64,000 bases of DNA from Bacteroidetes bacterium GWB2_32_14. GTDB taxonomy: Bacteria; Bacteroidota; Bacteroidia; Bacteroidales; UBA12077. The DNA lies in contig MENK01000019.1 of assembly GCA_001768235.1 (NCBI GenBank), positions 1-64,000 of the forward strand, given 5' to 3'. Of this stretch, positions 13,134 to 30,229 are shown one piece after another. The notes below the pieces were generated by a model, which was not told the DNA's origin, made no database searches, and saw only the letters and a program-made list of their open reading frames with translations. Both the position numbers and the translations under genes were made by a program. Each line of letters opens with the position of its first letter. Within the stretch, counting starts at the first letter, position 1.

Positions 13134-14306
13134 TTATCTTTTCAGCGGGGAATTTTTATATATCAATAAAAAAGGCCTGAGAATATAGTACAAGAAAAAT
13201 AGTTTATTTGGTAATTTCAGTATTTCCCAATCTGAAAGATGTGTTCTTAATCTATAGGTTAAATCAAAATAATACTTTATATCGGGCTTTAATTTGAATC
13301 TGTATAATACATACTTAATTTTTCCTGTTACTCCCTGTTGTTTCAATTCGTTTAATTGAATTGATTTTAATGGAATTTGAATAAGATACTCTTCCCTTTT
13401 ATTGCTTTTAAAAAATGCAGGGATTTCGGTATTGTATATTACATGAGACATCAGGCATGCCTGGGAAAAACATTTTTCCAATTTCAAAAATCTTGATAAT
13501 TCAACCGCCTTTTTAAAATCTCCAGGATTGGTTTTTGATAATAAAACAGAAAAATCTTTTAACCAGAAAAGCCTGTACCATTGATGAATTGATCCATGCG
13601 CTGCCAAAAAAACAAGATTATCGACTCTTGAAATATAAGGAGCATCAATCGTGTTGATTTTGATTTTTTCTGATTTTGCAATAAGTTCAGATGTGTTTTT
13701 TCCAAAAAAAGATTGAGGATTCGTAATACTCCAATGTAATTCAATATCAATGTTTTTGTATTGATGTTTAAAATGGTAGTGATGGCTTATACTGTAGTTT
13801 GCATTTCTTTGACGTTCGGTAAGCTTCATTCGTGGGTAAATACAATTAAATCCCAGATTTTCTATTATTTGCCTTGCTTTTTCAACATTGTTTTTTTCAA
13901 CTAAAATATCAATATCTCCAAAGTTTCGAAAACCTGCATCGTTATATAAATCCAGCGATAATAATGGCCCTTTGAAAAAACAATGCAAAATCGAATTCTC
14001 GATTAACCGCTGATGTATCTGAATTAAATAAACTGTGTAATTCAGCGATTTACCTGATTGATCGATCTTGATTTGCTTAATCTTTTCAACTATTCCCGGG
14101 GGAATGAATTCTTCTAAGTATTGAGAATGTTTATAAATATGTGATACAAGCCTATGCTTTAAAGTTAATTCCAAAAATAAATCCCAGTCAATATTCTTTA
14201 CGAATAAAGATATTTCCTGCCTGGCTAATTCATCTCGCGAAAGAAGAATTAGCAGATTCACCTCGTTGGAGAATTTATTTTTAATATATGCTACGTAATC
14301 TTTCAT
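13134..14306 (-). CDS. Lasso-cluster nucleotidyltransferase (family 5 type)
   Basis: A 390-residue protein of the uncharacterised nucleotidyltransferase family often found in RiPP clusters (NTP_transf_5). The polymerase-beta-like active site is at residues 127-136 (RNFGDIDILV), with Asp131 and Asp133 as the probable metal ligands, preceded by KGPLLS at 112-117. Its ATG overlaps the stop of the cyclase gene (ATGA), so both are translated from one divergent transcript. Homologues accompany kinase-containing lasso clusters such as paeninodin's. By inference it may extend or alter a phosphorylated peptide; this is not shown by the sequence. Confidence 0.75.
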   Translation of the reverse strand: MKDYVAYIKNKFSNEVNLLILLSRDELARQEISLFVKNIDWDLFLELTLKHRLVSHIYKHSQYLEEFIPPGIVEKIKQIKIDQSGKSLNYTVYLIQIHQRLIENSILHCFFKGPLLSLDLYNDAGFRNFGDIDILVEKNNVEKARQIIENLGFNCIYPRMKLTERQRNANYSISHHYHFKHQYKNIDIELHWSITNPQSFFGKNTSELIAKSEKIKINTIDAPYISRVDNLVFLAAHGSIHQWYRLFWLKDFSVLLSKTNPGDFKKAVELSRFLKLEKCFSQACLMSHVIYNTEIPAFFKSNKREEYLIQIPLKSIQLNELKQQGVTGKIKYVLYRFKLKPDIKYYFDLTYRLRTHLSDWEILKLPNKLFFLYYILRPFLLIYKNSPLKR

Positions 14307-16183
14307 TTAAAAAGTGATGGATTCTGTTCAATAAATAATACCAGTTTTAAATAATTATAAAACGCTCCCGGATTTATATTCATTTGTTTTTGTCGCGATC
14401 GTTGACAAAGTTTTCCAAACCATTTTTCATAAGCATCTAAATCAATATAGCGGGTAATTTTGGGGTTCGTTTTTGATTTAATAATGATTTCGGCAACTTT
14501 TTCTTTGTCGTTGAGCATTCGCATAAATACCGTTGGTATTGTTGTCCCGCTTTTATCGTTTCTGCTATAAATTTTTTCGGGAACAAGCTCTTCAATTGCT
14601 TTTCGAAATGCATAACGGTTTATCCCGTTCCTGGCCTTTAATCGAATTGGCATAGATAAATAAAATTCTACAAGCCTTTTATCTAAAAGCGGATACCTAT
14701 ATTCTATCCCTAATTTTCTTGTTGCTGTTGAACAGTATTCCAGCCTTTGCGAAACATGAGGATGTGTAATTCGCTCAATATTTTTTCCCTGAAGAGTTGC
14801 CCATTCGTTTTTACCAAAATGCGAAGAATAGCGTTCTTTAATTTTCATCTCTTCAGAAAACAGGCTGTTTAGTGCAAGATTTTCGAACTTCCTCTGCCAC
14901 CAAACCTTCCCTTGCTTAACGTGATGAATTATATTGTATATCCCCTTACATTTCGTTTTCAGAAAACATCTTGAAAGTTTTAATAAAACTTTGATTTGAC
15001 TTAACTTTTGATTTTGTAAATCCTGTTTTAATTCTTTCCATAATCCTGATTGTGCAAGTTCTTTTTGATAAGATTCTGATTTGGAACTAATAACTTCATC
15101 GCCACCAAATCCTGACAACAATACCGTAACACCTTCCTGTTGAGCTTTTATGTATAAATAATCAGAAAAAGTGCTAAAGTTTTGCTGACTGATGTGTTTA
15201 AAATCTTGCACATTCTGATTTAAAGTATTTAAAAGTCCTGTATTTTCTGATGTTATAAAAAATCTATCCTGAATACCACAATAATCAGTTAAAAGACGAA
15301 TAAATTCACGCTCATCGTTAAACGGGTGAATTTTCCCTAACATATAATCGGGCATTATATGCGAGAATGTTTTTACTTTACAAAACCGGGAAGCAATTGC
15401 TACAATGGCTGAAGAATCGAGGCCTCCGCTTAATTCAGCTCCTGTTTTTGAATCTTTAGTTATCCTGCATTCTACGGCTTCTGTTAACAACTTTTTAAAT
15501 TGTTCTATTATCAGGGATTCGTCTATTTGCAGCGTTTTCTGAACAGTCAGTTTCCAATACTCTTTTACTTCTGCCTGGTTATTCTTTAAAACCAGGTAAT
15601 GCGCAGGTGGGAGTTTCTTAATTTCAGTGTAAGTTGTTCTGTTATTTTCCGATTTCACTATCGAAAGAGTGTCTGCAACATATTGTTGATCAATACCAAA
15701 ACTCAAATCTGTTTGCGAAAGAATAGCACGAATTTCTGATGAAAAAACAAATGTTTCTCCATTAAAAAAATAGTAGAATGGCTTTACCCCAAAATGATCC
15801 CGTGTACAAAAAAGCTCTTTGGTTTCATCATTCCAAATTACAAAAGCAAAATCTCCAAGAAGATATTTTGCACATTCGTGCTCCCACTTTTCAAATGCAT
15901 GAATTAATATCTCATCATCGGGTATGGATTCATTTTTAATCTCAAGTTTTTCAATCAGTTCATTCCTGTTATCCAATCTGCAATCCGAAAGAACTAACAA
16001 TCGATTATTGTGAATACATATTTTCGGGTGATCAGGATAAAAAGTAATTTGCCCAAATCCCGAATTTGTAAATCGTTTCGAATCCATTTCGGTTTGAGAA
16101 TAAACAGATAAACTTTCAAGCCCTTTTTCTAAAAGTTCTTTCGTCGGGTTCTTATTATCTATTCTTCCAAAAATGGATTTCAT
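14303..16183 (-). CDS. Lasso peptide cyclase (asparagine synthetase-like, C protein)
   Basis: A 626-residue asparagine-synthase homologue. Residues 1-~195 form a class II glutaminase-like domain, but the N-terminus reads MKSIFG where AsnB has MCGI: the nucleophilic Cys is missing, so ammonia cannot be made from glutamine. The ATP-pyrophosphatase motif SGGLDSS is intact at 252-258, followed by the helical synthetase domain (YRYPLLDKRLVEF and KSGTTIPT blocks). This combination fits lasso cyclases (McjC type), which adenylate an Asp/Glu side chain and join it to the core N-terminus. It is divergent from the kinase gene with 116 bp between starts. The best alternative, true AsnB, is disfavoured by the missing Cys and the neighbours. 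Confidence 0.85.
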   Translation of the reverse strand: MKSIFGRIDNKNPTKELLEKGLESLSVYSQTEMDSKRFTNSGFGQITFYPDHPKICIHNNRLLVLSDCRLDNRNELIEKLEIKNESIPDDEILIHAFEKWEHECAKYLLGDFAFVIWNDETKELFCTRDHFGVKPFYYFFNGETFVFSSEIRAILSQTDLSFGIDQQYVADTLSIVKSENNRTTYTEIKKLPPAHYLVLKNNQAEVKEYWKLTVQKTLQIDESLIIEQFKKLLTEAVECRITKDSKTGAELSGGLDSSAIVAIASRFCKVKTFSHIMPDYMLGKIHPFNDEREFIRLLTDYCGIQDRFFITSENTGLLNTLNQNVQDFKHISQQNFSTFSDYLYIKAQQEGVTVLLSGFGGDEVISSKSESYQKELAQSGLWKELKQDLQNQKLSQIKVLLKLSRCFLKTKCKGIYNIIHHVKQGKVWWQRKFENLALNSLFSEEMKIKERYSSHFGKNEWATLQGKNIERITHPHVSQRLEYCSTATRKLGIEYRYPLLDKRLVEFYLSMPIRLKARNGINRYAFRKAIEELVPEKIYSRNDKSGTTIPTVFMRMLNDKEKVAEIIIKSKTNPKITRYIDLDAYEKWFGKLCQRSRQKQMNINPGAFYNYLKLVLFIEQNPSLFK

Positions 16184-16299: not shown

Positions 16300-17196
16300 A
16301 TGCCTGCAATATATACATATAAAGCTTTTGGATTAATTATTCAGTCAGAATTTGAAATTCCCGAATTCATGACTTCTAAAGGAATTGCAGACATTGAGAT
16401 TAACCTAGGAAAAGTCCCTGAAAAACTAGATCGGGTTATTAAAAAAGGTGTTAAATACCAGGCTGCCAGGAATGAGTTTTTACTTGAAGTCGATCAAATA
16501 GCCAGGTATTATGTTAAAAACGGATGTGAAATCAGGGTTGAAACTTCAACAAATCATGCCGATAAGGAAGTCCGCTTATTCTTACTTGGTTCTGCATTTG
16601 GAGCATTATTTCTTCAAAGAGGATTGCTCCCTATTCATGGAAGTGCAATAAAATTTGGAAATTCTGCATGTATTTTTTCCGGAGTAAGTGGTGTTGGAAA
16701 ATCTTCCATTGCAGCAACATTTGTGTTAAAGGGATTTCAACTTTTAGCCGATGATATTTGTGTTATAGATAATAAATTAAGCGTGGCTCCCGGATTTCCG
16801 CATATGAAAATCTGGAAAGATATACTCGACAGTTTAAAAATTAAAACCGAAGCATTAACAGAAATCAGGCCCGAAATAAAAAAATACCATATGCCTGTAG
16901 ATGATGGTTTCTATAATGATTCATTACCCCTGTCCAAAATTTTCATCATCACTACAAAAAATACTCCCGGTTATGAGGTTGAAGAACTAAAGGGACTTCA
17001 AAAATTCAATGCTGTTAAGAGCAATACATACAGATATCGGTTTGTTGGCGGACTCGAAAAACAACTCGATCATTTTCAAACATTAAATAAACTTTTACCT
17101 GAAATAAAGGTTTATAGAGTTTCAAGGCCTCAATCACCCATCATGCTCGAAGAGTTTGCTGATTTTCTGATTAATACATTTAAACTCGATGTATAA
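16300..17196 (+). CDS. HPr kinase-like protein of the lasso cluster
   Basis: A 298-residue protein related to the C-terminal domain of HPr kinase/phosphorylase. The Walker A loop is GVSGVGKS at 128-135, preceded by the family HGS motif at 113-115 and followed by LLADDICVI (Asp151-Asp152), the metal and catalytic region. It lacks the HPr-kinase N-terminal domain. In the paeninodin family such kinases phosphorylate the C-terminal serine of the lasso precursor, and the precursor encoded here also ends in Ser50. Its 3' end overlaps the sulfotransferase gene by 8 nt, so it heads a plus-strand operon with B1, B2 and possibly A. Function on this peptide is an inference. Confidence 0.82.
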   Translation: MPAIYTYKAFGLIIQSEFEIPEFMTSKGIADIEINLGKVPEKLDRVIKKGVKYQAARNEFLLEVDQIARYYVKNGCEIRVETSTNHADKEVRLFLLGSAFGALFLQRGLLPIHGSAIKFGNSACIFSGVSGVGKSSIAATFVLKGFQLLADDICVIDNKLSVAPGFPHMKIWKDILDSLKIKTEALTEIRPEIKKYHMPVDDGFYNDSLPLSKIFIITTKNTPGYEVEELKGLQKFNAVKSNTYRYRFVGGLEKQLDHFQTLNKLLPEIKVYRVSRPQSPIMLEEFADFLINTFKLDV

Positions 17197-18055
17197 GAAA
17201 AATGTAATCTGGTTGGCAAGTTATCCAAAATCAGGCAATACTTGGTTTCGGGTTTTTATAACTAACCTGTTAAGCAACTCAGATGCTCCTGCAAATATTA
17301 ACGATTTGTCCGAGACAAGTATCTCCAGCTCGCGCAAAGTTTTTGATGATTATACCGGTTTATCATCTTCCGATTTATCCTTTGAAGAAATTGATAAACT
17401 TCGGCCGGAAGTATATCGCATGCAATCTGAAGAGTCGTCTGAACTCTTATTTAAAAAGGTTCACGATAAGTTTTATTTTGTTGCTGAAAATCAGCCCTTG
17501 TTTCCTCCTGAAATTTCAAAAGGAGTTATCTATTTAATCCGGAATCCTTTAGATGTGATAGTTTCATTCGCGTATCACAGTTCCAGGCCTGTAAATAAGA
17601 TGATTTCAGCATTGAATAATCCCGAATATGCTTTTTGCGATAAAAATGACAAACTCCAGAATCAGTTAAGGCAGATTCTCGGATCGTGGTCAGGGCACGT
17701 ACAGAGCTGGACCGAACAAAAACTCATTCCTGTTCATGTAATTCGATACGAAGATATGATTAACAACACCTTTGAAAGTTTTTCAAAAGCTATCCGTTTT
17801 TTAAGTATTGAGAAAACAGATCAGCAAATAAGAGATGCCATTCAAAAAAGTGATTTTCGAATCTTGTCAGGGCAGGAGAAAATAAGTGGGTTCAAAGAAA
17901 AAATGATTCAGTCAAAATCATTTTTCAGAAAAGGGAAAATTGGTGACTGGAGAAATCATCTTGACAAAGAAATACAAGATAAAATAATTGAAAATCATAA
18001 AGATGCTATGATTAAATTTGGATATTTAACATCTGAAAGTAAATTGATTTATTAA
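17189..18055 (+). CDS. PAPS-dependent sulfotransferase in the lasso cluster
   Basis: A 288-residue sulfotransferase (Sulfotransfer_1 type). The 5'-phosphosulfate loop is YPKSGNTW at 12-19, the 3'-phosphate site is RNPLDVIVS at 118-126, and the late RKGKIGDWRNHL block matches the conserved RxGxxGxW motif. These are the three landmarks of cytosolic-type enzymes using 3'-phosphoadenylyl sulfate. It overlaps the kinase by 8 nt and precedes B1 by 7 nt, so it is embedded in the biosynthetic operon. Candidate acceptors in the predicted core are Tyr45 (core 10), Ser44, Thr42, Thr46 and Ser50. The acceptor is not determined. Confidence 0.85.
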   Translation: MYKKNVIWLASYPKSGNTWFRVFITNLLSNSDAPANINDLSETSISSSRKVFDDYTGLSSSDLSFEEIDKLRPEVYRMQSEESSELLFKKVHDKFYFVAENQPLFPPEISKGVIYLIRNPLDVIVSFAYHSSRPVNKMISALNNPEYAFCDKNDKLQNQLRQILGSWSGHVQSWTEQKLIPVHVIRYEDMINNTFESFSKAIRFLSIEKTDQQIRDAIQKSDFRILSGQEKISGFKEKMIQSKSFFRKGKIGDWRNHLDKEIQDKIIENHKDAMIKFGYLTSESKLIY

Positions 18056-18062
18056 AATAAAT

Positions 18063-18350
18063 ATGAAAATAAATTTAGAGACTACAATTCAGCAAAATAA
18101 AGATATTTTAACCAGTGCTATCGATGGCGAAAAGGTAATGATGAGTATTCGTTTTGGAGAATATTACGGGCTGGGAATGACAGGGAGTTTTATCTGGGAT
18201 CATATTGAAAAGCCCATAAAAGTATCCGAATTAATCAACCTTATTACCGAAAAATACGCTGTTGATGAAGAAAAATGCTTTGGTGATATTGCTCCTTTCT
18301 TGAACGATTTGCTTGAAAAAGAACTAATCATTGCAACCAAGCAAGTTTGA
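18063..18350 (+). CDS. PqqD-family RRE protein (lasso B1)
   Basis: A 95-residue PqqD-like protein, the stand-alone RiPP recognition element that binds the leader peptide and presents it to the protease and cyclase. Typical features are the N-terminal beta-strand region (about 20-45, with the GEYYGLGMTGSFIW segment), then a helical part (LINLITEKYAVDEEKCFGDIAPFLNDLLEKELI) in which PqqD family members carry the V-x(5)-D-V-x-F-L-x-x-L pattern. Here the pattern reads DIAPFLNDLLEKELI. It sits directly before the B2 protease gene, the split B1/B2 arrangement common outside Enterobacteriaceae. Confidence 0.88.
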   Translation: MKINLETTIQQNKDILTSAIDGEKVMMSIRFGEYYGLGMTGSFIWDHIEKPIKVSELINLITEKYAVDEEKCFGDIAPFLNDLLEKELIIATKQV

Positions 18351-18380: not shown

Positions 18381-18818
18381 ATGTTCAAATTGTTTAAAAA
18401 ATATATTAACTTAAAAAAAGCGGAACGGAAAATTTTAAATCAAACCTTTTTCTGGTTGGTTTATGCAACTGTTCTTGCAAGATTAATTCCCTTACGATGG
18501 TTTAACCATCTTTTAGGTGAATTTAGGAAAGAAGAATTTACTGAATTAGGATCAATTCAGATTGAAATAATTCAATTATTTAAAAAAAATCTGCGTCGTT
18601 GGAAACGCAATTTTCCGTGGAAAATAAAATGCTTTGAAGAGGCCATTGCTGCAAAAAAAGTTCTTGAAAAATATAAAATTAAAACTACCTTGTTTTTAGG
18701 TGTTGATAAAAACGATAAAAAGGAACTAACAGCTCATGCCTGGACAAAAGCAGGAAATACGGTTATTACAGGAGAAAAGGGATTTGAAAGATTTGTTGTG
18801 GTGGGATTCTACACATAA
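18381..18818 (+). CDS. Lasso leader peptidase (transglutaminase-like, B2)
   Basis: A 145-residue protein of the McjB C-terminal family, a cysteine protease with transglutaminase fold that removes the leader. The catalytic Cys is at 84 (KIKCFEEAIAAK) and His at 119 in TAHAWTKAG, in the expected order and spacing. A third acidic residue is not obvious from the sequence. N-terminal residues 20-45 are hydrophobic and aromatic, a normal feature of B2 proteins. It starts 30 nt after B1. A 145-bp gap with a possible promoter separates it from the precursor gene. Confidence 0.86.
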   Translation: MFKLFKKYINLKKAERKILNQTFFWLVYATVLARLIPLRWFNHLLGEFRKEEFTELGSIQIEIIQLFKKNLRRWKRNFPWKIKCFEEAIAAKKVLEKYKIKTTLFLGVDKNDKKELTAHAWTKAGNTVITGEKGFERFVVVGFYT

Positions 18819-18963: not shown

Positions 18964-19116
18964 ATGGATGAGAAGATAAAGAACCCCGAAAGAAATAAAC
19001 TCAAAACGGGCGAGAAACTTGAGTGGGAAACTCCAAAACTGATTTGTTTGGATAAAGGAAAAACTGAAGGAGGCCCTGTGGCAGATACGGAATCTTATAC
19101 AGGTGATCTTTCTTAG
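18964..19116 (+). CDS. Lasso peptide precursor, predicted core GGPVADTESYTGDLS
   Basis: A 50-codon gene, read by hand because of its size. The leader (residues 1-35) is charged and contains W21-x-x-P24-x-L26-x-x-L29-D30-x-x-x-T34, the spacing of paeninodin-type lasso leaders, with the conserved Thr at position -2. Cleavage after Glu35 gives a 15-residue core from Gly36: GGPVADTESYTGDLS. Core residue 8 is Glu43, so an isopeptide bond from Gly1 to Glu8 gives an eight-residue ring and a seven-residue tail SYTGDLS; Asp6 is too close and Asp13 too far. Tyr45 and Ser50 are candidate sulfation and phosphorylation sites. It stands 145 bp after the B2 gene and 12 bp before a T9SS-secreted protein. The ring prediction is an inference from family rules. 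Confidence 0.8.
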   Translation: MDEKIKNPERNKLKTGEKLEWETPKLICLDKGKTEGGPVADTESYTGDLS

Positions 19117-19128
19117 AAAAATACAATT

Positions 19129-22100
19129 ATGAAAAAACAGAATTTTAGTATTAAAGTAATATTTTTTTTAAGTCTATTGATACAATCATTAATTATTAGT
19201 GGACAGGAATATTCATTATCAGCCTTACTTTCTGCAAGCAATGGAATAAATATATACAATATTAAAAAAGTTAGTGACGGAATTATTGTGTATGGAGACT
19301 ATAAAGGGACTCTAAATGCCAATGGGACACATATTGCTGATGATAGAGATGTCTATTTAGTTAAATATAATAATGATTTTCAAATACAATGGGCTAAACA
19401 AATAGGTGGAACTTTAATTGATCTCGCTTCTGATTTAAAAGTATCTGAAGATGGTTCAATCTATTTATTAAGCTCATTTACTGGCACATGCCTTTTCAAT
19501 GGGACGAATCAAATATCATCCACAGGTTCTTATGATGTTATATTAGCAAAATATAACAATTCAGGGGATTTTATTTGGGGTAAAAATATTGCATATAATC
19601 TTGCAGATCAATATGGAACATGTATGACTATTGATAAATTTGGAGATTTAATTATTGGAGGATATTACAAAGATTCTATAAGTTTTTCTGATACTAGTTT
19701 CGTTTCATCCTATGGAATGTATTATGCAAAATTAGATAATGGAGGTAATTTTCTATGGGCAAAAAATATACCTTCTACTTCTAGTAGTTCCCAATTAAGA
19801 TCATTGAGTGCTTTTAACGATGGTTATTATATAAATGGAATCTTTAAAGAAACATCAAGTTTTGATTTAGGAAATGAAATATCAAATACCGTAAGTTACA
19901 CTGACGTTTTTCTCTATAAAACAGATTTTTCAGGTGATGGTTTATGGTTGAGAAGGACTTATGGAGATAAAAATGCTTTTACAGGAACTATTACAAATGA
20001 TGAATATGATAATGTTTATTATACTGGTTATTTTGGTGGTTTGCAAATGGAAATCGACTTAAATGAAACTCAAAAGTCAAATACAATTTTATATAACAAT
20101 GGAGTTACTCAAGATATTTTTATATTAAAATATAATAAAGAAGGAAGCTTGATTTGGGCTATGGATTATGGTATGTCAGGAGATGACTTTGACAGGGATA
20201 TCAAATATCAAAATAATTTTTTATATATAACCGGATATTTTACTGATTCTTTAATATTTGGATCTGATACATTGTTCTCTGGTTCAACAACAGATATGGA
20301 TGCATTTTTAGGAATGATAGATAGAGGAGGAAATACTTTAAAGGCAATAAAAGTTACTGACTCTAATGATGGTTCTGAATCAGGAATGAAATTATCTTCA
20401 GACAGTTATAATAATGCTTTTTGGGGCGGTTATTTTAATTCAACATCTATTACAATAGGTGATAGTACATTTATTAATCCGTATTCTGGAAAGAGAAGTG
20501 TATTTGTATCAAAATACAAGCCTCCTTATGTCGCAGCATTTACTAAAAAAACAAATGTTTCCTGCAACCAGGGTTCCGATGGGGAATTAATTGTAACACC
20601 TTATTTTGGGGTGCTTCCATACACCTATTCCTGGAGCCACGATGCCGGGTTAAATGATTCTACAGCTACAGGTTTAACCGCGGGTACCTATACTGTAACG
20701 GTAACAGATTTTTTAGATTCTGTCGCTGTTGTTCAATATACTCTTACTGAACCCGATTCATTTATTTTTGACCCGGCAATTACCCAGGTTACTACATGTA
20801 GTTACAGTGCCGAAGGAGCAATTAATTTAAATGTTACCGGTGGAAATGGGGAAAATACCTATTACTGGTTCGAAGCAGATGGAGGTTCAGGTGTGCAATT
20901 AACAATGGAAGATCAGTTTAATTTAACAACCGGCAGTTACAGTGTAACAGTAACCGACTCGAAAGGTTGTACATCAGACACAACCATTTATATTACAGGT
21001 CCCGAGTCAATAACTTTTAGCAATACCATAGTAACAAATTATTCGGGGCCTATGGCCAAAGGAAAAATTGACCTGGTATATGAAGGCGGATTTGGTGATC
21101 CTGCATCGTATGCTTTTAGCTGGCAAGGGCCTTCTGGCTATACTTCATCCGAAGATAGTATTTCCAATCTCGATCCAGGAAACTATACTGTTACTGCTTC
21201 CGATGTTCATTCTTGTGATTTCGATACTACTTTTAATGTTAAAGACTTAGACACATTCTATGTATATATTTCGGATTACAAACATGCTTGCAATGGTACA
21301 ATAAATGGCCATGCAACTGCCAGCTATTATTCACCCGAAGGACACACAAATATTACATATCAATGGGATGCCAATGCAGACAACCAGATAACAGCCAAAG
21401 CAACAAACTTAGCACCGGGAAGATATTATTACGTTACAGTTACCGACCTTGATAACACTCCAAATAGCGTAATGGTAGATAGTATATATATTGATGAATT
21501 AAGTTACACGTTTAGCGGTTCAATTTCAGGTATATCAACAACTACACTGGGTTGTTATGGCGATACAGATGGATTTATCGATTTAAATATTACAGATGCA
21601 GGAACTCTTCCCTATTTATATCTGTGGAATACAGGAGCAACTACGCAGGACTTAATTAATTTACCTGTAGGCACTTATAGCGTAACAGCAACTGATGCAA
21701 ATGAATGCCAGTTTTCGGTTACAAACTATCAAATTAGTCAACCAACAGTTTTAGCTGCTACAGCCGAAATAGTAAGTAAACCAAGCTGCTACGGAGATTA
21801 CGATGGCGAAATTACGGTATTGCGTAACGGAGGAACAGGCCCTTACACCTATCAGTGGAATGATCCCGGTTTTCAAACAGAACAAAATGCAACGGGCCTG
21901 GATGTCGGTTATTACACTGTTACAGTTACTGATTACAATGGGTGTACAAAAAATGCTTCAGTAAATCTCACCCAACCAGACGCTTTAAGTGTTATTAAAA
22001 CCGTATATCCTGTTTCCTGTAACAGTGGAAACGATGGAACCGCATTGTTAATCGTAACAGGAGGAACTGTTTCCGGATCATATACTTATGACTGGTCAAC

Positions 22101-23247
22101 AACGAACGGCTCTGGTTTAGTCTTGGGCAACGAAGATCAAATTACTCTCACGACAGGAAACTATGATTTTACGATTACAGATGACAATGCTTGCACTTAC
22201 TTAGATAGTGTTGAAATAACAGAACCTGATATTTTAGAAATAACAAACGAATCTAAAACAGATGTTTCTACTTGTTTTGGTGATACTAACGGCACGATTA
22301 CAATCACTGCTTCAGGTGGTACGGGAACATTAACTTATACCTTAAACCCGGGTGCTATTCAAGTAAACAACACCGGCGTTTTTACAGGATTAACCGCAGG
22401 AACTTATACTGTAGATGTTGATGATATAAATGGTTGCGGGCCAGTAACATCTAACTCAATTACAATTGAAGAACCAATACAAATTAGTATTGAAGAAACA
22501 CTGACTACGAATGCTTCTTGCTTTAGCTTATCTGATGGCTCCGTTGATATTACTGTTTCAGGAGGTACAATTGCTTCTGATTATAATTACAATTGGTCAA
22601 CTGCCAATGGATCGGGTTTAGTTAATGGAAATGCTGACCAATCTGGTCTGTCAGCAGGAACCTATAATCTGACAGTTACAGACAATAACTCATGTTCCGA
22701 AACAACTTCAATAATCATTAATCAGCCCGACGAAATTGTTATTGATTCCACAAAAATTATTGATGCATCGTCCGAAATGGCAAATGATGGTTCAATTACT
22801 ATTTACGTGAAAGGCGGAGCAGGAACCTATAATTTTACTTTAAACCCGGGTGCTGTTCAAACAAATCAAACAGGGATATTCACAGGCTTATTACCAGGAG
22901 AATATACAATTGAAGTGGTTGATACAGATGGCTGTGGGCCGGTTACATCTGATGCCTTAACTGTTTCATACACTGTTGGACTTGATAATGTTAATTTTAC
23001 CGATAATATTAAAGTTTACCCAAATCCAACATCTTCTAAAATAACTGTCGAGATTAATAATATTCAAACAGATGGTTATACAATTTCTATTTTTGATGTT
23101 ACCGGAATGCAAGTTTACTCAGAAAAAATTAAAAAGGAAGGGTTAATTAAAAAGGAAATTGATTTATCGGGTTATGCAAAGGGTATTTATTCAATCCAGA
23201 TTATTATGCAAGATAGAATAATGAGCCAAAAAATAATATTACAGTAA
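19129..23247 (+). CDS. Secreted SprB-repeat protein with T9SS sorting domain
   Basis: A 1372-residue exported protein. A signal peptide (residues 1-26, ending ISGQ) is followed by a repetitive region (about 40-465) with recurring blades of the type DVYLVKYNNDFQIQWAKQIGG and DVILAKYNNSGDFIWGKNI, a beta-propeller-like SBBP pattern. From about 475 to 1290 there are about ten SprB-like Ig repeats (C-x-G-x(2)-DG...GG..PY.Y.W...GTYTVTVTD). The last 80 residues form a type A T9SS sorting domain (YPNPTSSKITVEI, GMQVYSEKI, KGIYSIQI). It is probably secreted and anchored at the cell surface. It begins 12 nt after the precursor stop, so it may be cotranscribed; any link to the lasso peptide is unproven. 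A terminator follows at 23271. Confidence 0.85.
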   Translation: MKKQNFSIKVIFFLSLLIQSLIISGQEYSLSALLSASNGINIYNIKKVSDGIIVYGDYKGTLNANGTHIADDRDVYLVKYNNDFQIQWAKQIGGTLIDLASDLKVSEDGSIYLLSSFTGTCLFNGTNQISSTGSYDVILAKYNNSGDFIWGKNIAYNLADQYGTCMTIDKFGDLIIGGYYKDSISFSDTSFVSSYGMYYAKLDNGGNFLWAKNIPSTSSSSQLRSLSAFNDGYYINGIFKETSSFDLGNEISNTVSYTDVFLYKTDFSGDGLWLRRTYGDKNAFTGTITNDEYDNVYYTGYFGGLQMEIDLNETQKSNTILYNNGVTQDIFILKYNKEGSLIWAMDYGMSGDDFDRDIKYQNNFLYITGYFTDSLIFGSDTLFSGSTTDMDAFLGMIDRGGNTLKAIKVTDSNDGSESGMKLSSDSYNNAFWGGYFNSTSITIGDSTFINPYSGKRSVFVSKYKPPYVAAFTKKTNVSCNQGSDGELIVTPYFGVLPYTYSWSHDAGLNDSTATGLTAGTYTVTVTDFLDSVAVVQYTLTEPDSFIFDPAITQVTTCSYSAEGAINLNVTGGNGENTYYWFEADGGSGVQLTMEDQFNLTTGSYSVTVTDSKGCTSDTTIYITGPESITFSNTIVTNYSGPMAKGKIDLVYEGGFGDPASYAFSWQGPSGYTSSEDSISNLDPGNYTVTASDVHSCDFDTTFNVKDLDTFYVYISDYKHACNGTINGHATASYYSPEGHTNITYQWDANADNQITAKATNLAPGRYYYVTVTDLDNTPNSVMVDSIYIDELSYTFSGSISGISTTTLGCYGDTDGFIDLNITDAGTLPYLYLWNTGATTQDLINLPVGTYSVTATDANECQFSVTNYQISQPTVLAATAEIVSKPSCYGDYDGEITVLRNGGTGPYTYQWNDPGFQTEQNATGLDVGYYTVTVTDYNGCTKNASVNLTQPDALSVIKTVYPVSCNSGNDGTALLIVTGGTVSGSYTYDWSTTNGSGLVLGNEDQITLTTGNYDFTITDDNACTYLDSVEITEPDILEITNESKTDVSTCFGDTNGTITITASGGTGTLTYTLNPGAIQVNNTGVFTGLTAGTYTVDVDDINGCGPVTSNSITIEEPIQISIEETLTTNASCFSLSDGSVDITVSGGTIASDYNYNWSTANGSGLVNGNADQSGLSAGTYNLTVTDNNSCSETTSIIINQPDEIVIDSTKIIDASSEMANDGSITIYVKGGAGTYNFTLNPGAVQTNQTGIFTGLLPGEYTIEVVDTDGCGPVTSDALTVSYTVGLDNVNFTDNIKVYPNPTSSKITVEINNIQTDGYTISIFDVTGMQVYSEKIKKEGLIKKEIDLSGYAKGIYSIQIIMQDRIMSQKIILQ
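22005..22975 (+). repeat. Duplicated pair of SprB modules
   Basis: Within the SprB-repeat gene, the two-module unit at about 22005-22475 is repeated at about 22510-22975. Shared wording includes WST-x-NGSGLV and NPGA-x-Q-x-N-x-TG-x-FTG and GCGPVTS in both. This looks like an internal duplication of a module pair that has since diverged. Confidence 0.65.
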
Positions 23248-27119: not shown

Positions 27120-30100
27120 TTATTTTCTTAACTTAATGTACTCGGGTAAAGTTAGGACTTTTTTAAGAACTTCATAATATAATGTTACATAGAAAAACAA
27201 GGTCATTACCCAAATAAAAATCATGTTAAACCAGTACGTGTCACGGTATTGTCCAAGAAAATATTTCTGTGGAGCAAAAAAGTGAGATCTGAAATTCAAG
27301 AATCCCTCAATATCCGGGTCTTTATATACAGGATCAATTTGCTGTACCAGTTCATCTTTGTATCGTAAAATTTTATTTTTTTCAAAAACTTTTTTAACCT
27401 GATCTTCAACACTTTCGTTGTGATATGCATCTCGTTTAGCCCGGTATAATTCAGGTTGAGTTTTTAATAAATATCGTATTTTGTTTTCTTTTTCGTTGTT
27501 TGCTTTTTGAAATATTGTACTATAATAAGATTCCAGTTTGTTTAAATAATCGCTCGTTTTACCTAAAACTATCTCGTTAAACACGGAAGTATCAAGTTGA
27601 TGAGCAGACTCGAAAAAGATACCTGTTCTGTCTTGTTCTTTATTAAGCTCGTTTTTTAATAAGGCTAATGCGTCAGTAACCTGAACTTTAACATCAGGCT
27701 CATTAAAGCGGTACCAGTTATCTTCAATATATGTTAATTGTTTTGATAATTCGGGGAGATAATAAACCTGTTTAAAATCTGCATTACTTTCGCGTTTTTC
27801 GATATCGTAAAAATTTTTTTGAAATTCATTGTTTTTAAATTGATTTACCATTAAAGCTTCGAACGACCATTTGGTTGGCATAAATTCAGCAACCCAGGGT
27901 ACTTTTTTAACACTTCCTATAGACCGGTTCATTTTATCAAACGGGAACATTGCCCCGCTTAATATCATCATAGGAATCATTAATAATGGAATTAGTATAT
28001 AAATGGTTACAGCGGAATTAAACGATGCAGAAACGTTTAATCCCATCATGTTTGCAAACGCTGCTGTAGTAAATAAAGCAAACCAGTATTCGAAAAACAT
28101 TCCTCGCACACCCAGGATATTATTGGCTATTAAAACAAACAACAATGCCTGAATAGCCGATATACTAAACAGAATAAATATTTTTGATATTAAATAACTC
28201 GAACGGCTTAAATTAAGAAAAGCCTCGCGTTTTAAAATTTTCCTGTCGCGAAAAATCTCTTCGGCACTAATTGTTAATCCTAAGAACAGGGCAACAATTA
28301 AGCCCATGAAAATATAGATATGAATATTTTCGTTTTCCCTGAAAATATATTCTCTTGAATTTGGGTCGGCAATATACCGGATGATATATGAAAGAATAAA
28401 ACCCAGTACTGGTGCTTCAAGCAAATTAAGGGCAATATATTGTTTATTACTTATTTTTGATAAAAAGTCGCGAATAGTATAAATACTTAACTGTTTAATC
28501 CATGAAGGAATCCTTAATGTTGATGGTGGTGGTTCAACAACGGGTTCAACTAGTGACAGCTTTATATTTTCTTTAAAATTTTCTTCCCATTTCTGGGGCG
28601 ATATTTTTCGTTGTAAGGTGTATTTACCATACTCATCAACAACACGAGCTTCAATAATATTAAAAATAAGCTCTGGATTTACATTCCCGCATGTCGGGCA
28701 TTCACCCACTTCGCTATTTATCTGGGCATCGAGGCGTTTAAAATACATAACTCCTTCAACCGGGTTTCCATAATAAATCATATATCCCCCGGTATCGAGA
28801 ATCATCATATTATCAAACATTTTATAAATATCTGATGATGGCTGGTGAATAACTACAAAAATTAATTTCCCTTTAAGTGCTAATTCCCTTAGCAAGTCCA
28901 TCACATTCTCGGAATCGCGGGATGATAATCCTGATGTTGGTTCATCAACAAAAAGTATGGATGGTTCACGGATTAGCTCGAGAGCAATATTTAATCTTTT
29001 TCGTTGGCCCCCGCTAATCATTTTATTGAGTGGCGAACCTACTTTTAAATCTTTTCTCTCGTGCAAGCCCAGATTTACAAGGGTTTTATCAACTAATGCA
29101 TTGATTTCTTCTTCGGACTTATCGTTAAAACAAAGTTTTGCATTGTAATACAGGTTTTGATAAACCGTTAATTCTTCTATAAGTAAATCATCCTGGGGAA
29201 TATAACCTATAACACCTTCGAGTTTTTCTTTTTCAGTATGTAAATTTATTCCATTAATAAGAATTTCGCCACTTGTAGGCTCACTTATGCCTGCCAAAAC
29301 ATTAAGTAATGTGGTTTTACCAGCACCACTTGCTCCCATCAATCCAATAAGTTTACCCTGATCTTCTGAAAAGTTTATATCTCGTAACCCTATTCCTCCA
29401 TTAGGAAAAATGAAATTAACATTTTGGGTTGTGTACGAAATCTTTATTGATGTGCTGTCGGCAAGATAGTGTGCAACAATATCGCTGTAATATATTGGTT
29501 TTCCTTTAGGGAGCTTTATTGTTCCCCCGTTAGCAAATAAATAGATTCGTTTATAATTTACAGGCAGTCCGTTTAAAAATAAATCTTCCTGCCCCGTATA
29601 ACGCATAAAATAAAGGTCAACACTTTTTACCTGTAGAATAAGAATATGCCCGTTAAGAGCATCTACTTTTACCTGTTTACATTCTTTTGTATCAAGTTTT
29701 TTCTCACTTATTATTAAGTTACATGAGAAATCGAGTTTTTCTACTTCATTATTAATTACAAAACTTTCAATACTAACAAACTCTTCTTTAGTAAGCTTAA
29801 AAACTTCGGCAACAGTATTAATAATTGCCATACGTTGTTCCGAGAATTTTCTGTCGGCATTAATTAACTCGAAAAGACGAACAAGAACAATAACTTTTTG
29901 TTTTTGAGTTAATGTTTTATTGATTTTTTTACAAATACCTAAAATCCGGACAGAGTCTTTAACGGATGTAAGTTTAATTTTATCTGTTTTTTCTTCTTTA
30001 TCGTCTCCTGTTAAACCGGCCATTTCATCAAAAAGAGCCAGGTATTCAGGAACAGCTTCATCGTTTAATTGCTGAGTTAAAAAATTTTCTACATATTCCC

Positions 30101-30182
30101 TTTCATTAGACTCAACACCTTCGTCTTGTTTTACAATTAATGCAAATAATTGCATAAGGGCTTTTAATATCTCTTCACTCAT
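27120..30182 (-). CDS. ABCG-type transporter with TerB-like N-terminal domain
   Basis: A 1020-residue half-to-full ABC transporter. Residues 1-145 contain two TerB-like helical halves (QDEGVESNEREYVENFL; NADRKFSEQRMAIINTV). Residues 150-255 look like a beta-rich FHA-like domain. The ATPase domain (about 262-480) has Walker A GASGAGKTT at 283-291, signature ISGGQRKR at 389-396 and Walker B ILFVDEP at 409-415, followed by HQPSSDIY as in ABCG proteins. A CPTC motif (ECPTCGNVNPEL) follows, then a membrane domain of about six helices interrupted by a soluble region of about 200 residues before the last helix. It lies 47 nt after the SiaC gene, suggesting it is the output of the partner switch. Substrate unknown. 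Confidence 0.75.
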   Translation of the reverse strand: MSEEILKALMQLFALIVKQDEGVESNEREYVENFLTQQLNDEAVPEYLALFDEMAGLTGDDKEEKTDKIKLTSVKDSVRILGICKKINKTLTQKQKVIVLVRLFELINADRKFSEQRMAIINTVAEVFKLTKEEFVSIESFVINNEVEKLDFSCNLIISEKKLDTKECKQVKVDALNGHILILQVKSVDLYFMRYTGQEDLFLNGLPVNYKRIYLFANGGTIKLPKGKPIYYSDIVAHYLADSTSIKISYTTQNVNFIFPNGGIGLRDINFSEDQGKLIGLMGASGAGKTTLLNVLAGISEPTSGEILINGINLHTEKEKLEGVIGYIPQDDLLIEELTVYQNLYYNAKLCFNDKSEEEINALVDKTLVNLGLHERKDLKVGSPLNKMISGGQRKRLNIALELIREPSILFVDEPTSGLSSRDSENVMDLLRELALKGKLIFVVIHQPSSDIYKMFDNMMILDTGGYMIYYGNPVEGVMYFKRLDAQINSEVGECPTCGNVNPELIFNIIEARVVDEYGKYTLQRKISPQKWEENFKENIKLSLVEPVVEPPPSTLRIPSWIKQLSIYTIRDFLSKISNKQYIALNLLEAPVLGFILSYIIRYIADPNSREYIFRENENIHIYIFMGLIVALFLGLTISAEEIFRDRKILKREAFLNLSRSSYLISKIFILFSISAIQALLFVLIANNILGVRGMFFEYWFALFTTAAFANMMGLNVSASFNSAVTIYILIPLLMIPMMILSGAMFPFDKMNRSIGSVKKVPWVAEFMPTKWSFEALMVNQFKNNEFQKNFYDIEKRESNADFKQVYYLPELSKQLTYIEDNWYRFNEPDVKVQVTDALALLKNELNKEQDRTGIFFESAHQLDTSVFNEIVLGKTSDYLNKLESYYSTIFQKANNEKENKIRYLLKTQPELYRAKRDAYHNESVEDQVKKVFEKNKILRYKDELVQQIDPVYKDPDIEGFLNFRSHFFAPQKYFLGQYRDTYWFNMIFIWVMTLFFYVTLYYEVLKKVLTLPEYIKLRK

Positions 30183-30229
30183 AATCTAAAATTAAACGAT
30201 TCAAATAAGTAAAAACAAAGAATAAGCAC

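Follow-up and report, generated by a model that had tools for sequence, protein, structure and literature searches.

The window, that is, the whole 64,000-nucleotide stretch of DNA analysed, harbours on its plus strand a 50-codon gene (A; positions 18964-19116) that had been singled out by a sequence-only reading and was confirmed as an ATG-initiated open reading frame (ORF) of 50 aa. Its first 35 aa (18964-19068) form a predicted leader containing W-ETPKLICLDKGKTE, in which the motif W-x2-P-x-L-x2-L-D-x3-T described in that reading is indeed present, spanning W21 to T34 and placing Thr at position -2. The core (19069-19113) starts at residue 36 and reads GGPVADTESYTGDLS, with acidic residues at core positions 6, 8 and 13. 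A ring is predicted between Gly1 and Glu8, beyond which the tail comprises 7 residues, and Ser15 is the predicted kinase site.

The genes next to A were assigned by family searches. On the minus strand, a nucleotidyltransferase (N; 13134-14306; PF14907, 167.9 bits) and an asparagine synthase homologue, the putative lasso cyclase (C; 14303-16183; PF00733, 153 bits, cut-off 21), were found; the best NCBIfam match of C is the lasso cyclase model NF033535, at 371.8 bits and thus below the model cut-off of 525. Head-to-head with these, the plus strand encodes a putative HprK-like kinase (K; 16300-17196), a PAPS-type sulfotransferase (S; 17189-18055; PF00685, Sulfotransfer_1, 108.3 bits), a PqqD-type leader-binding protein (B1; 18063-18350; PF05402; NF033536, 93.5 bits, cut-off 80), a leader protease (B2; 18381-18818; Transglut_core3, PF13471; NF033537, 70 bits, cut-off 33), A and a propeller gene. 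The score of K on PF07475 (29.4 bits) is slightly below the cut-off of 33.3 and its HprK alignment is weak (E 0.072); its translation (HGS...GVSGVGKSS...LLADD) contains the lasso-kinase residues His, GxGKS and Asp-Asp reported in the accessible text of PMC9266682 and PMC10368454. Sequence matches of S in the PDB include estrogen sulfotransferase, Teg12/Teg14 and StaL, and Cys84 and His119 of B2 are kept in all 18 aligned B2 proteins. The spacings from K through the propeller gene are -8, 7, 30, 145 and 12 bp, which suggests that K-S-B1-B2-A-propeller form one operon. All three of the B1, B2 and cyclase genes that the sequence-only reading had placed around A were thus recovered in the same cluster, and the kinase, sulfotransferase, nucleotidyltransferase and propeller genes were additions to it.

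Among 20 genomes of the genus, 12 carry a close B2, and all 12 share one gene order, N-C-K-S-B1-B2-A. Homologous precursors with the leader motif were sought and 12 were found, all downstream of B2 and in the same gene order, so A is not a chance ORF; a second A was searched for in its own genome and none was found. The resulting 13 genus-type precursors (from the window, 11 same-genus genomes and contig L025, a partial 13th locus) all have Thr at -2 and Ser as last residue, and 12 of them carry an acid at core position 7-9, where lasso rings are closed on Asp or Glu according to the available text of PMC10368454. The acid is at position 9 in 11 precursors and at position 8 in the window alone; the predicted eight-residue ring is therefore an exception, that is, a variant in a family for which nine residues are mostly predicted. 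The core of L036 has no acid at 7-9 (its acids are at 3, 6 and 10), and that of L035 starts with Asn. Together with B1, B2 and C, the conserved Thr(-2) and the acids at 7-9 support the earlier proposal of a lasso precursor with Gly1 and Glu8 as predicted ring partners, and A very probably gives rise to a knotted (lasso) peptide. An ORF for an IS200-like transposase was seen between S and B1 at one genus locus (L030:13940-14455; PF01797), and ORFs like it occur in L025 (with no Pfam match) and, by likeness, in L034 and L038.

The gene that starts 12 bp 3′ of A (19129-23247, plus strand; 4.1 kb) encodes a 1372-aa secreted protein, the partner, with a propeller, SprB repeats (PF13573, in 7 stretches) and a type A T9SS sorting domain at its tail (23014-23238; PF18962, residues 1296-1370; 48.8 bits, cut-off 27). 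Its N terminus is signal-like by a simple pattern, and the T9SS translocon SprA is present in its own genome (2748 bits). With a signal-like N terminus, a sorting domain and a T9SS in the genome, the partner is a predicted T9SS cargo. The propeller domain (19198-20550) was modelled from a four-row alignment as an all-beta fold (pLDDT 84.7, pTM 0.87), whose best PDB match is CylK (7ron; E 1.8e-16, TMq 0.69); CylK is an alkylating enzyme, and no such activity is implied for the partner. A partner homologue follows A at 13 of 13 genus-type loci, some of them cut by contig ends, masking or a stop (L025). Partner matches reach 9e-71 or better in the 12 genus genomes with the cluster, whereas the 8 without it, 6 of which are <90% complete, have weak matches (E 1.2e-15 at best) or no match.

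Beyond these loci, B2 was found in 48 of 393 genomes of the order and in 36 of 395 of the phylum, and the order, phylum and first searches together yielded 80 other B2 loci (L040-L051, L057-L093 and L096-L126). Among them 79 are outside the genus, L043 being a divergent B2 of genus member G001, and genomes G127 and G287 contribute two loci each. Of the 24 loci with S, 12 have a propeller gene in the stretch that was fetched, versus 2 of the 56 without S (Fisher P=2.9e-6; as the loci are related by descent, this and the other Fisher P values are too small and indicative only). Each such propeller adjoins a lasso gene or is within ~2 kb of one, and the two propeller-bearing loci without S (L040 and L120) are both on short contigs. 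No propeller was found at the other 12 of the 24 S loci, some of them on short contigs, nor in any of the 37 phylum-sample stretches (L057-L093). The gene orders include B2-A-propeller (L049, L118, L124 and L126), C-A-propeller (L040) and K-S-B1-B2-C-propeller (L050, L107 and L125). The propellers of L110, L113 and L120 are contig-end fragments of <250 aa; these loci were counted as propeller-bearing, and the fragments are outside the 24 lasso-locus propellers considered below. At genome level, taking the B2 and propeller searches (393 order genomes each, with overlapping handles) as one sample, a hand tally gave a best propeller match of at least 280 bits in 26 of 48 genomes with B2 versus 10 of 345 without; leaving out 14 training or genus genomes, the figures are 12 of 34 versus 10 of 345 (P=1.3e-8, again indicative).

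Propellers on other contigs of B2-bearing genomes (orphans) were compared with propellers from genomes in which no B2 was found (controls). For this, 23 orphan and 14 control stretches were hand-picked from the upper part of the propeller listing (left out were, for example, G717 and G568:C6), and propellers cut at a 5′ contig end were dropped (orphans L135, L137, the first of L144 and L163; control L159). By regular expression, a small W-xx-P gene lies within ~200 bp upstream of 12 of 20 orphans versus 0 of 14 controls (P=2.4e-4, likewise indicative), against a background of 23 matches among 936 other ORFs of at least 250 aa, a few of which resemble true precursors (L084, L088, L132 and L143). 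On average the orphans have the higher scores (up to 433 bits, versus 331 for the best control), and of the 7 orphans that do not exceed this best control, 4 have an upstream precursor. A leader HMM trained on lasso-locus precursors only found a precursor within 400 bp of 11 of 20 orphans versus 0 of 14 controls; at 8 bits, this independent HMM also matches 1 of 14 control stretches (a 29-aa ORF in L159). An HMM trained on all precursors, in either position, gave 16 of 20 orphan pairs; as it was trained partly on the orphan precursors themselves, this number is partly circular, and the regular expression and the independent HMM were preferred.

The 16 orphan-pair precursors carry an acid at 7-9 in 16 cases, a terminal Ser in 14 and Thr(-2) in 13; the acid and the terminal Ser played no part in finding them. 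Several of the cores start with E, H, Q or D, which is unusual for lassos. No precursor was found beside 5 of the 24 lasso-locus and 4 of the 20 orphan propellers (L050, L107, L122, L125, L133, L134, L142 and the second of L144 lack a detected A). Cyclase genes flank the pairs in L127, L130, L131, L136, L139, L141 and L146, and the B2 of each genome is on another contig of the draft assembly, which suggests that orphan-pair precursors are matured partly in trans. In a propeller tree of 54 rows, from which seven genus rows were left out, 35 rows (16 lasso-locus, 19 orphan and no control) form one group (SH-aLRT 91), so that all but four of the 39 propellers from lasso loci or orphan contigs stand apart from the 15 controls; the four orphans outside the group include L148 and L143, which have a precursor nearby. 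At the level of sequence, then, gene content, its conservation, the pairing of precursor with propeller and the link of that pairing to B2 can be read off directly. A second kind of partner may exist in L132 (2619-3972), where the precursor is flanked on one side by the propeller and on the other by a 382-aa T9SS-tailed protein that matches NHL/Vgb-lyase models weakly; in L143 (7542-9000), the gene after a precursor-like ORF is of the M23 peptidase/Csd3 type.

The sulfotransferase gene occurs at 24 of the 80 other B2 loci, of which 23 belong to the order and L070 to the class. K accompanies it at 23 of these 24, versus 31 of the 56 loci without S; the single S locus without K (L049) is cut inside S at the contig start. 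Precursors were identified at 17 of the 24 other S loci and end in Ser at 13 of them, the exceptions being L110, L111, L121 and L124; no precursor was found at L050, L100, L102, L103, L107, L114 and L125. Among the cores from S loci, 10 of the 13 genus-type ones and 12 of the 17 others contain Tyr, which would allow the sulfotransferase to act on Tyr10 of the window core, and Tyr could be the sulfate site in the window peptide itself. Yet Tyr is missing altogether from 8 of the 30 cores (L033, L034, L038, L051, L086, L106, L108 and L113), so Tyr sulfation as a general rule was rejected, and across loci S tracks the kinase gene; Tyr10 sulfation is therefore held to be possible and rather doubtful. 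By analogy with pseudomycoidin (PMC8498205, accessible text), the sulfate acceptor is most likely the C-terminal Ser or a sugar phosphate put there by N. A supply of PAPS is plausible in the genome of the window, since CysN, APS kinase and a CysD-like ORF are encoded on its contig C24, and in a different family of the order, a lasso cluster with kinase and sulfotransferase genes has CysD and a bifunctional CysN/APS kinase gene next to its cyclase (L086:5152-7990). Several further features were seen near such clusters: two kinase genes, one on each side of the sulfotransferase gene (L048 and L111); phage-tail-collar type proteins near two sulfotransferase-type clusters (L070:10452-12210 and L086:13514-15251), with a PF07484 match in L070:10452-11090 and assigned otherwise by sequence likeness only; and a precursor (L049:1739-1924) in which Ile replaces Thr at -2 and Asn occupies core position 1.

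Parts of this gene set are known from characterized systems. The paeninodin-type clusters (PadeK, ThcoK and SyanK), as described in the accessible text of PMC8498205 and PMC9266682, share with the window the split B1/B2 and a C-terminal precursor Ser, and their HprK-like kinase with His-Lys-Asp-Asp residues has a putative counterpart in K; given this putative kinase and the Ser, the label paeninodin-type fits better than the sequence-only reading had argued. The window cluster differs from them in the added S and N, the propeller gene after A, the lack of a dedicated ABC exporter and its origin in Bacteroidota. Pseudomycoidin likewise combines a lasso cluster with a kinase and a nucleotidyltransferase, which places a hexose on the phospho-Ser (PMC8498205, available text); the window also has S and is from a different phylum, and the role of N here is predicted from its gene. 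A sulfotransferase gene in Firmicutes lasso clusters was noticed by Zhu et al. 2016c, as told in a passage of PMC8498205 that names no sulfated product for them; all three kinds of tailoring gene (kinase, sulfotransferase and nucleotidyltransferase) have already been noted in the literature for lasso clusters of Firmicutes, whereas here S is found at 12 of 12 genus clusters and together with a propeller. BsfA of Bradymonas (PMC10368454, accessible text) resembles the window in its kinase, nucleotidyltransferase and B1/B2 and has Ile(-2), as in the L049 precursor; its cluster includes an ABC transporter, and the residue modified by its kinase is Ser3, which means that phosphorylation at the C terminus cannot be taken for granted. 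Among the matches listed from the open-access literature, judged by title and the start of the abstract, no description of a lasso-propeller pairing was found, and in the available text of a 2026 review of interlocked peptides (PMC13352647) the words ‘propeller' and ‘Bacteroid-' are both absent by word search.

In the usual view, a lasso peptide is a free small molecule that has its own exporter. When the whole window was searched with an exporter HMM, no dedicated ABC exporter was found in the cluster, and the lone match was a TerB/ABC-2 protein (27123-30185; 94 bits), a possible exporter as judged from its sequence. Its ORF is on the minus strand, ~4 kb beyond the partner gene, and ORFs resembling it by likeness lie downstream in genus loci. 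Strong exporter matches (>600 bits) were found at 6 of the 80 other loci, none with a propeller; an exclusion between the two (0 of 6 versus 14 of 74; P=0.58) is not significant, and three propeller-bearing loci (L122, L123 and L126) have weak ABC matches (86-105 bits) in their stretches. The propeller as a strict substitute for an ABC exporter is thus not supported statistically. Given the lack of a dedicated exporter in the window cluster, display of the peptide on, or co-secretion with, the T9SS protein would be attractive, provided that the peptide can cross the inner membrane.

Taken together, A probably encodes the precursor of a lasso peptide that is further tailored, and forms with the T9SS propeller gene a two-gene cassette in which it comes first. 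From the genes we infer every chemical step, as well as any physical contact between peptide and propeller, whether the propeller would bind the lasso or display it. B1 would bind the W-x2-P-x-L leader, K would phosphorylate the C-terminal Ser15, and S would add sulfate to a hydroxyl, likeliest at or beyond the C-terminal site, on the Ser or on a sugar phosphate that N has added, Tyr not being obligatory. B2 would cleave after ...KTE and C would join Gly1 to Glu8; the propeller protein would exit the cell via Sec and T9SS, and the lasso may be its ligand or cargo at the surface. A more far-reaching version is put forward tentatively: each surface propeller may have its own cognate lasso, phosphorylated or sulfated at the C terminus, with several pairs per genome sharing one B1/B2 set and the propeller replacing an exporter or receptor by T9SS display or co-secretion.

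The cluster could instead be an ordinary tailored lasso cluster whose peptide acts alone, as an antibiotic or signal, next to a propeller that is a mere neighbour through synteny or shared regulation. Inherited synteny does explain the pair partly within the family, as purD and further downstream genes are syntenic across the genus and in G020, and propeller-like proteins are common, with matches of some kind in 268 of 393 order genomes. Pure synteny is insufficient, however, because orphan precursor-propeller pairs exist: they recur on other contigs and in several families, in the orders C-A-propeller, propeller-A-C and B2-A-propeller. Moreover, precursor pairs are absent from all 14 control propellers, and the lasso-locus and orphan propellers largely group apart from the controls in the tree, leaving a propeller that is a neighbour only as an unlikely explanation. 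As for the peptide itself, a simple Gly1-Glu8 macrolactam with an unthreaded tail, or a ring closed at another acid (Asp6), would accord with the short tail and with the unusual L036 and L035 cores; it is considered improbable, as B1 and B2 are of the lasso type over their cut-offs, the closest family of C is that of the lasso cyclases, and most cores have an acid at 7-9.

With the tailored lasso precursor and its propeller partner as the preferred reading, the recurrence of the cassette in one order of Bacteroidota suggests a pair formed by a peptide and a surface protein. The recurrent pairing is a direct lead to the role of lasso peptides in Bacteroidota: it points to B1/B2 acting in trans on several precursor loci, and offers a concrete, testable binding partner. 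Furthermore, the lasso clusters that combine a kinase with a sulfotransferase provide a set for working out the sulfate acceptor.
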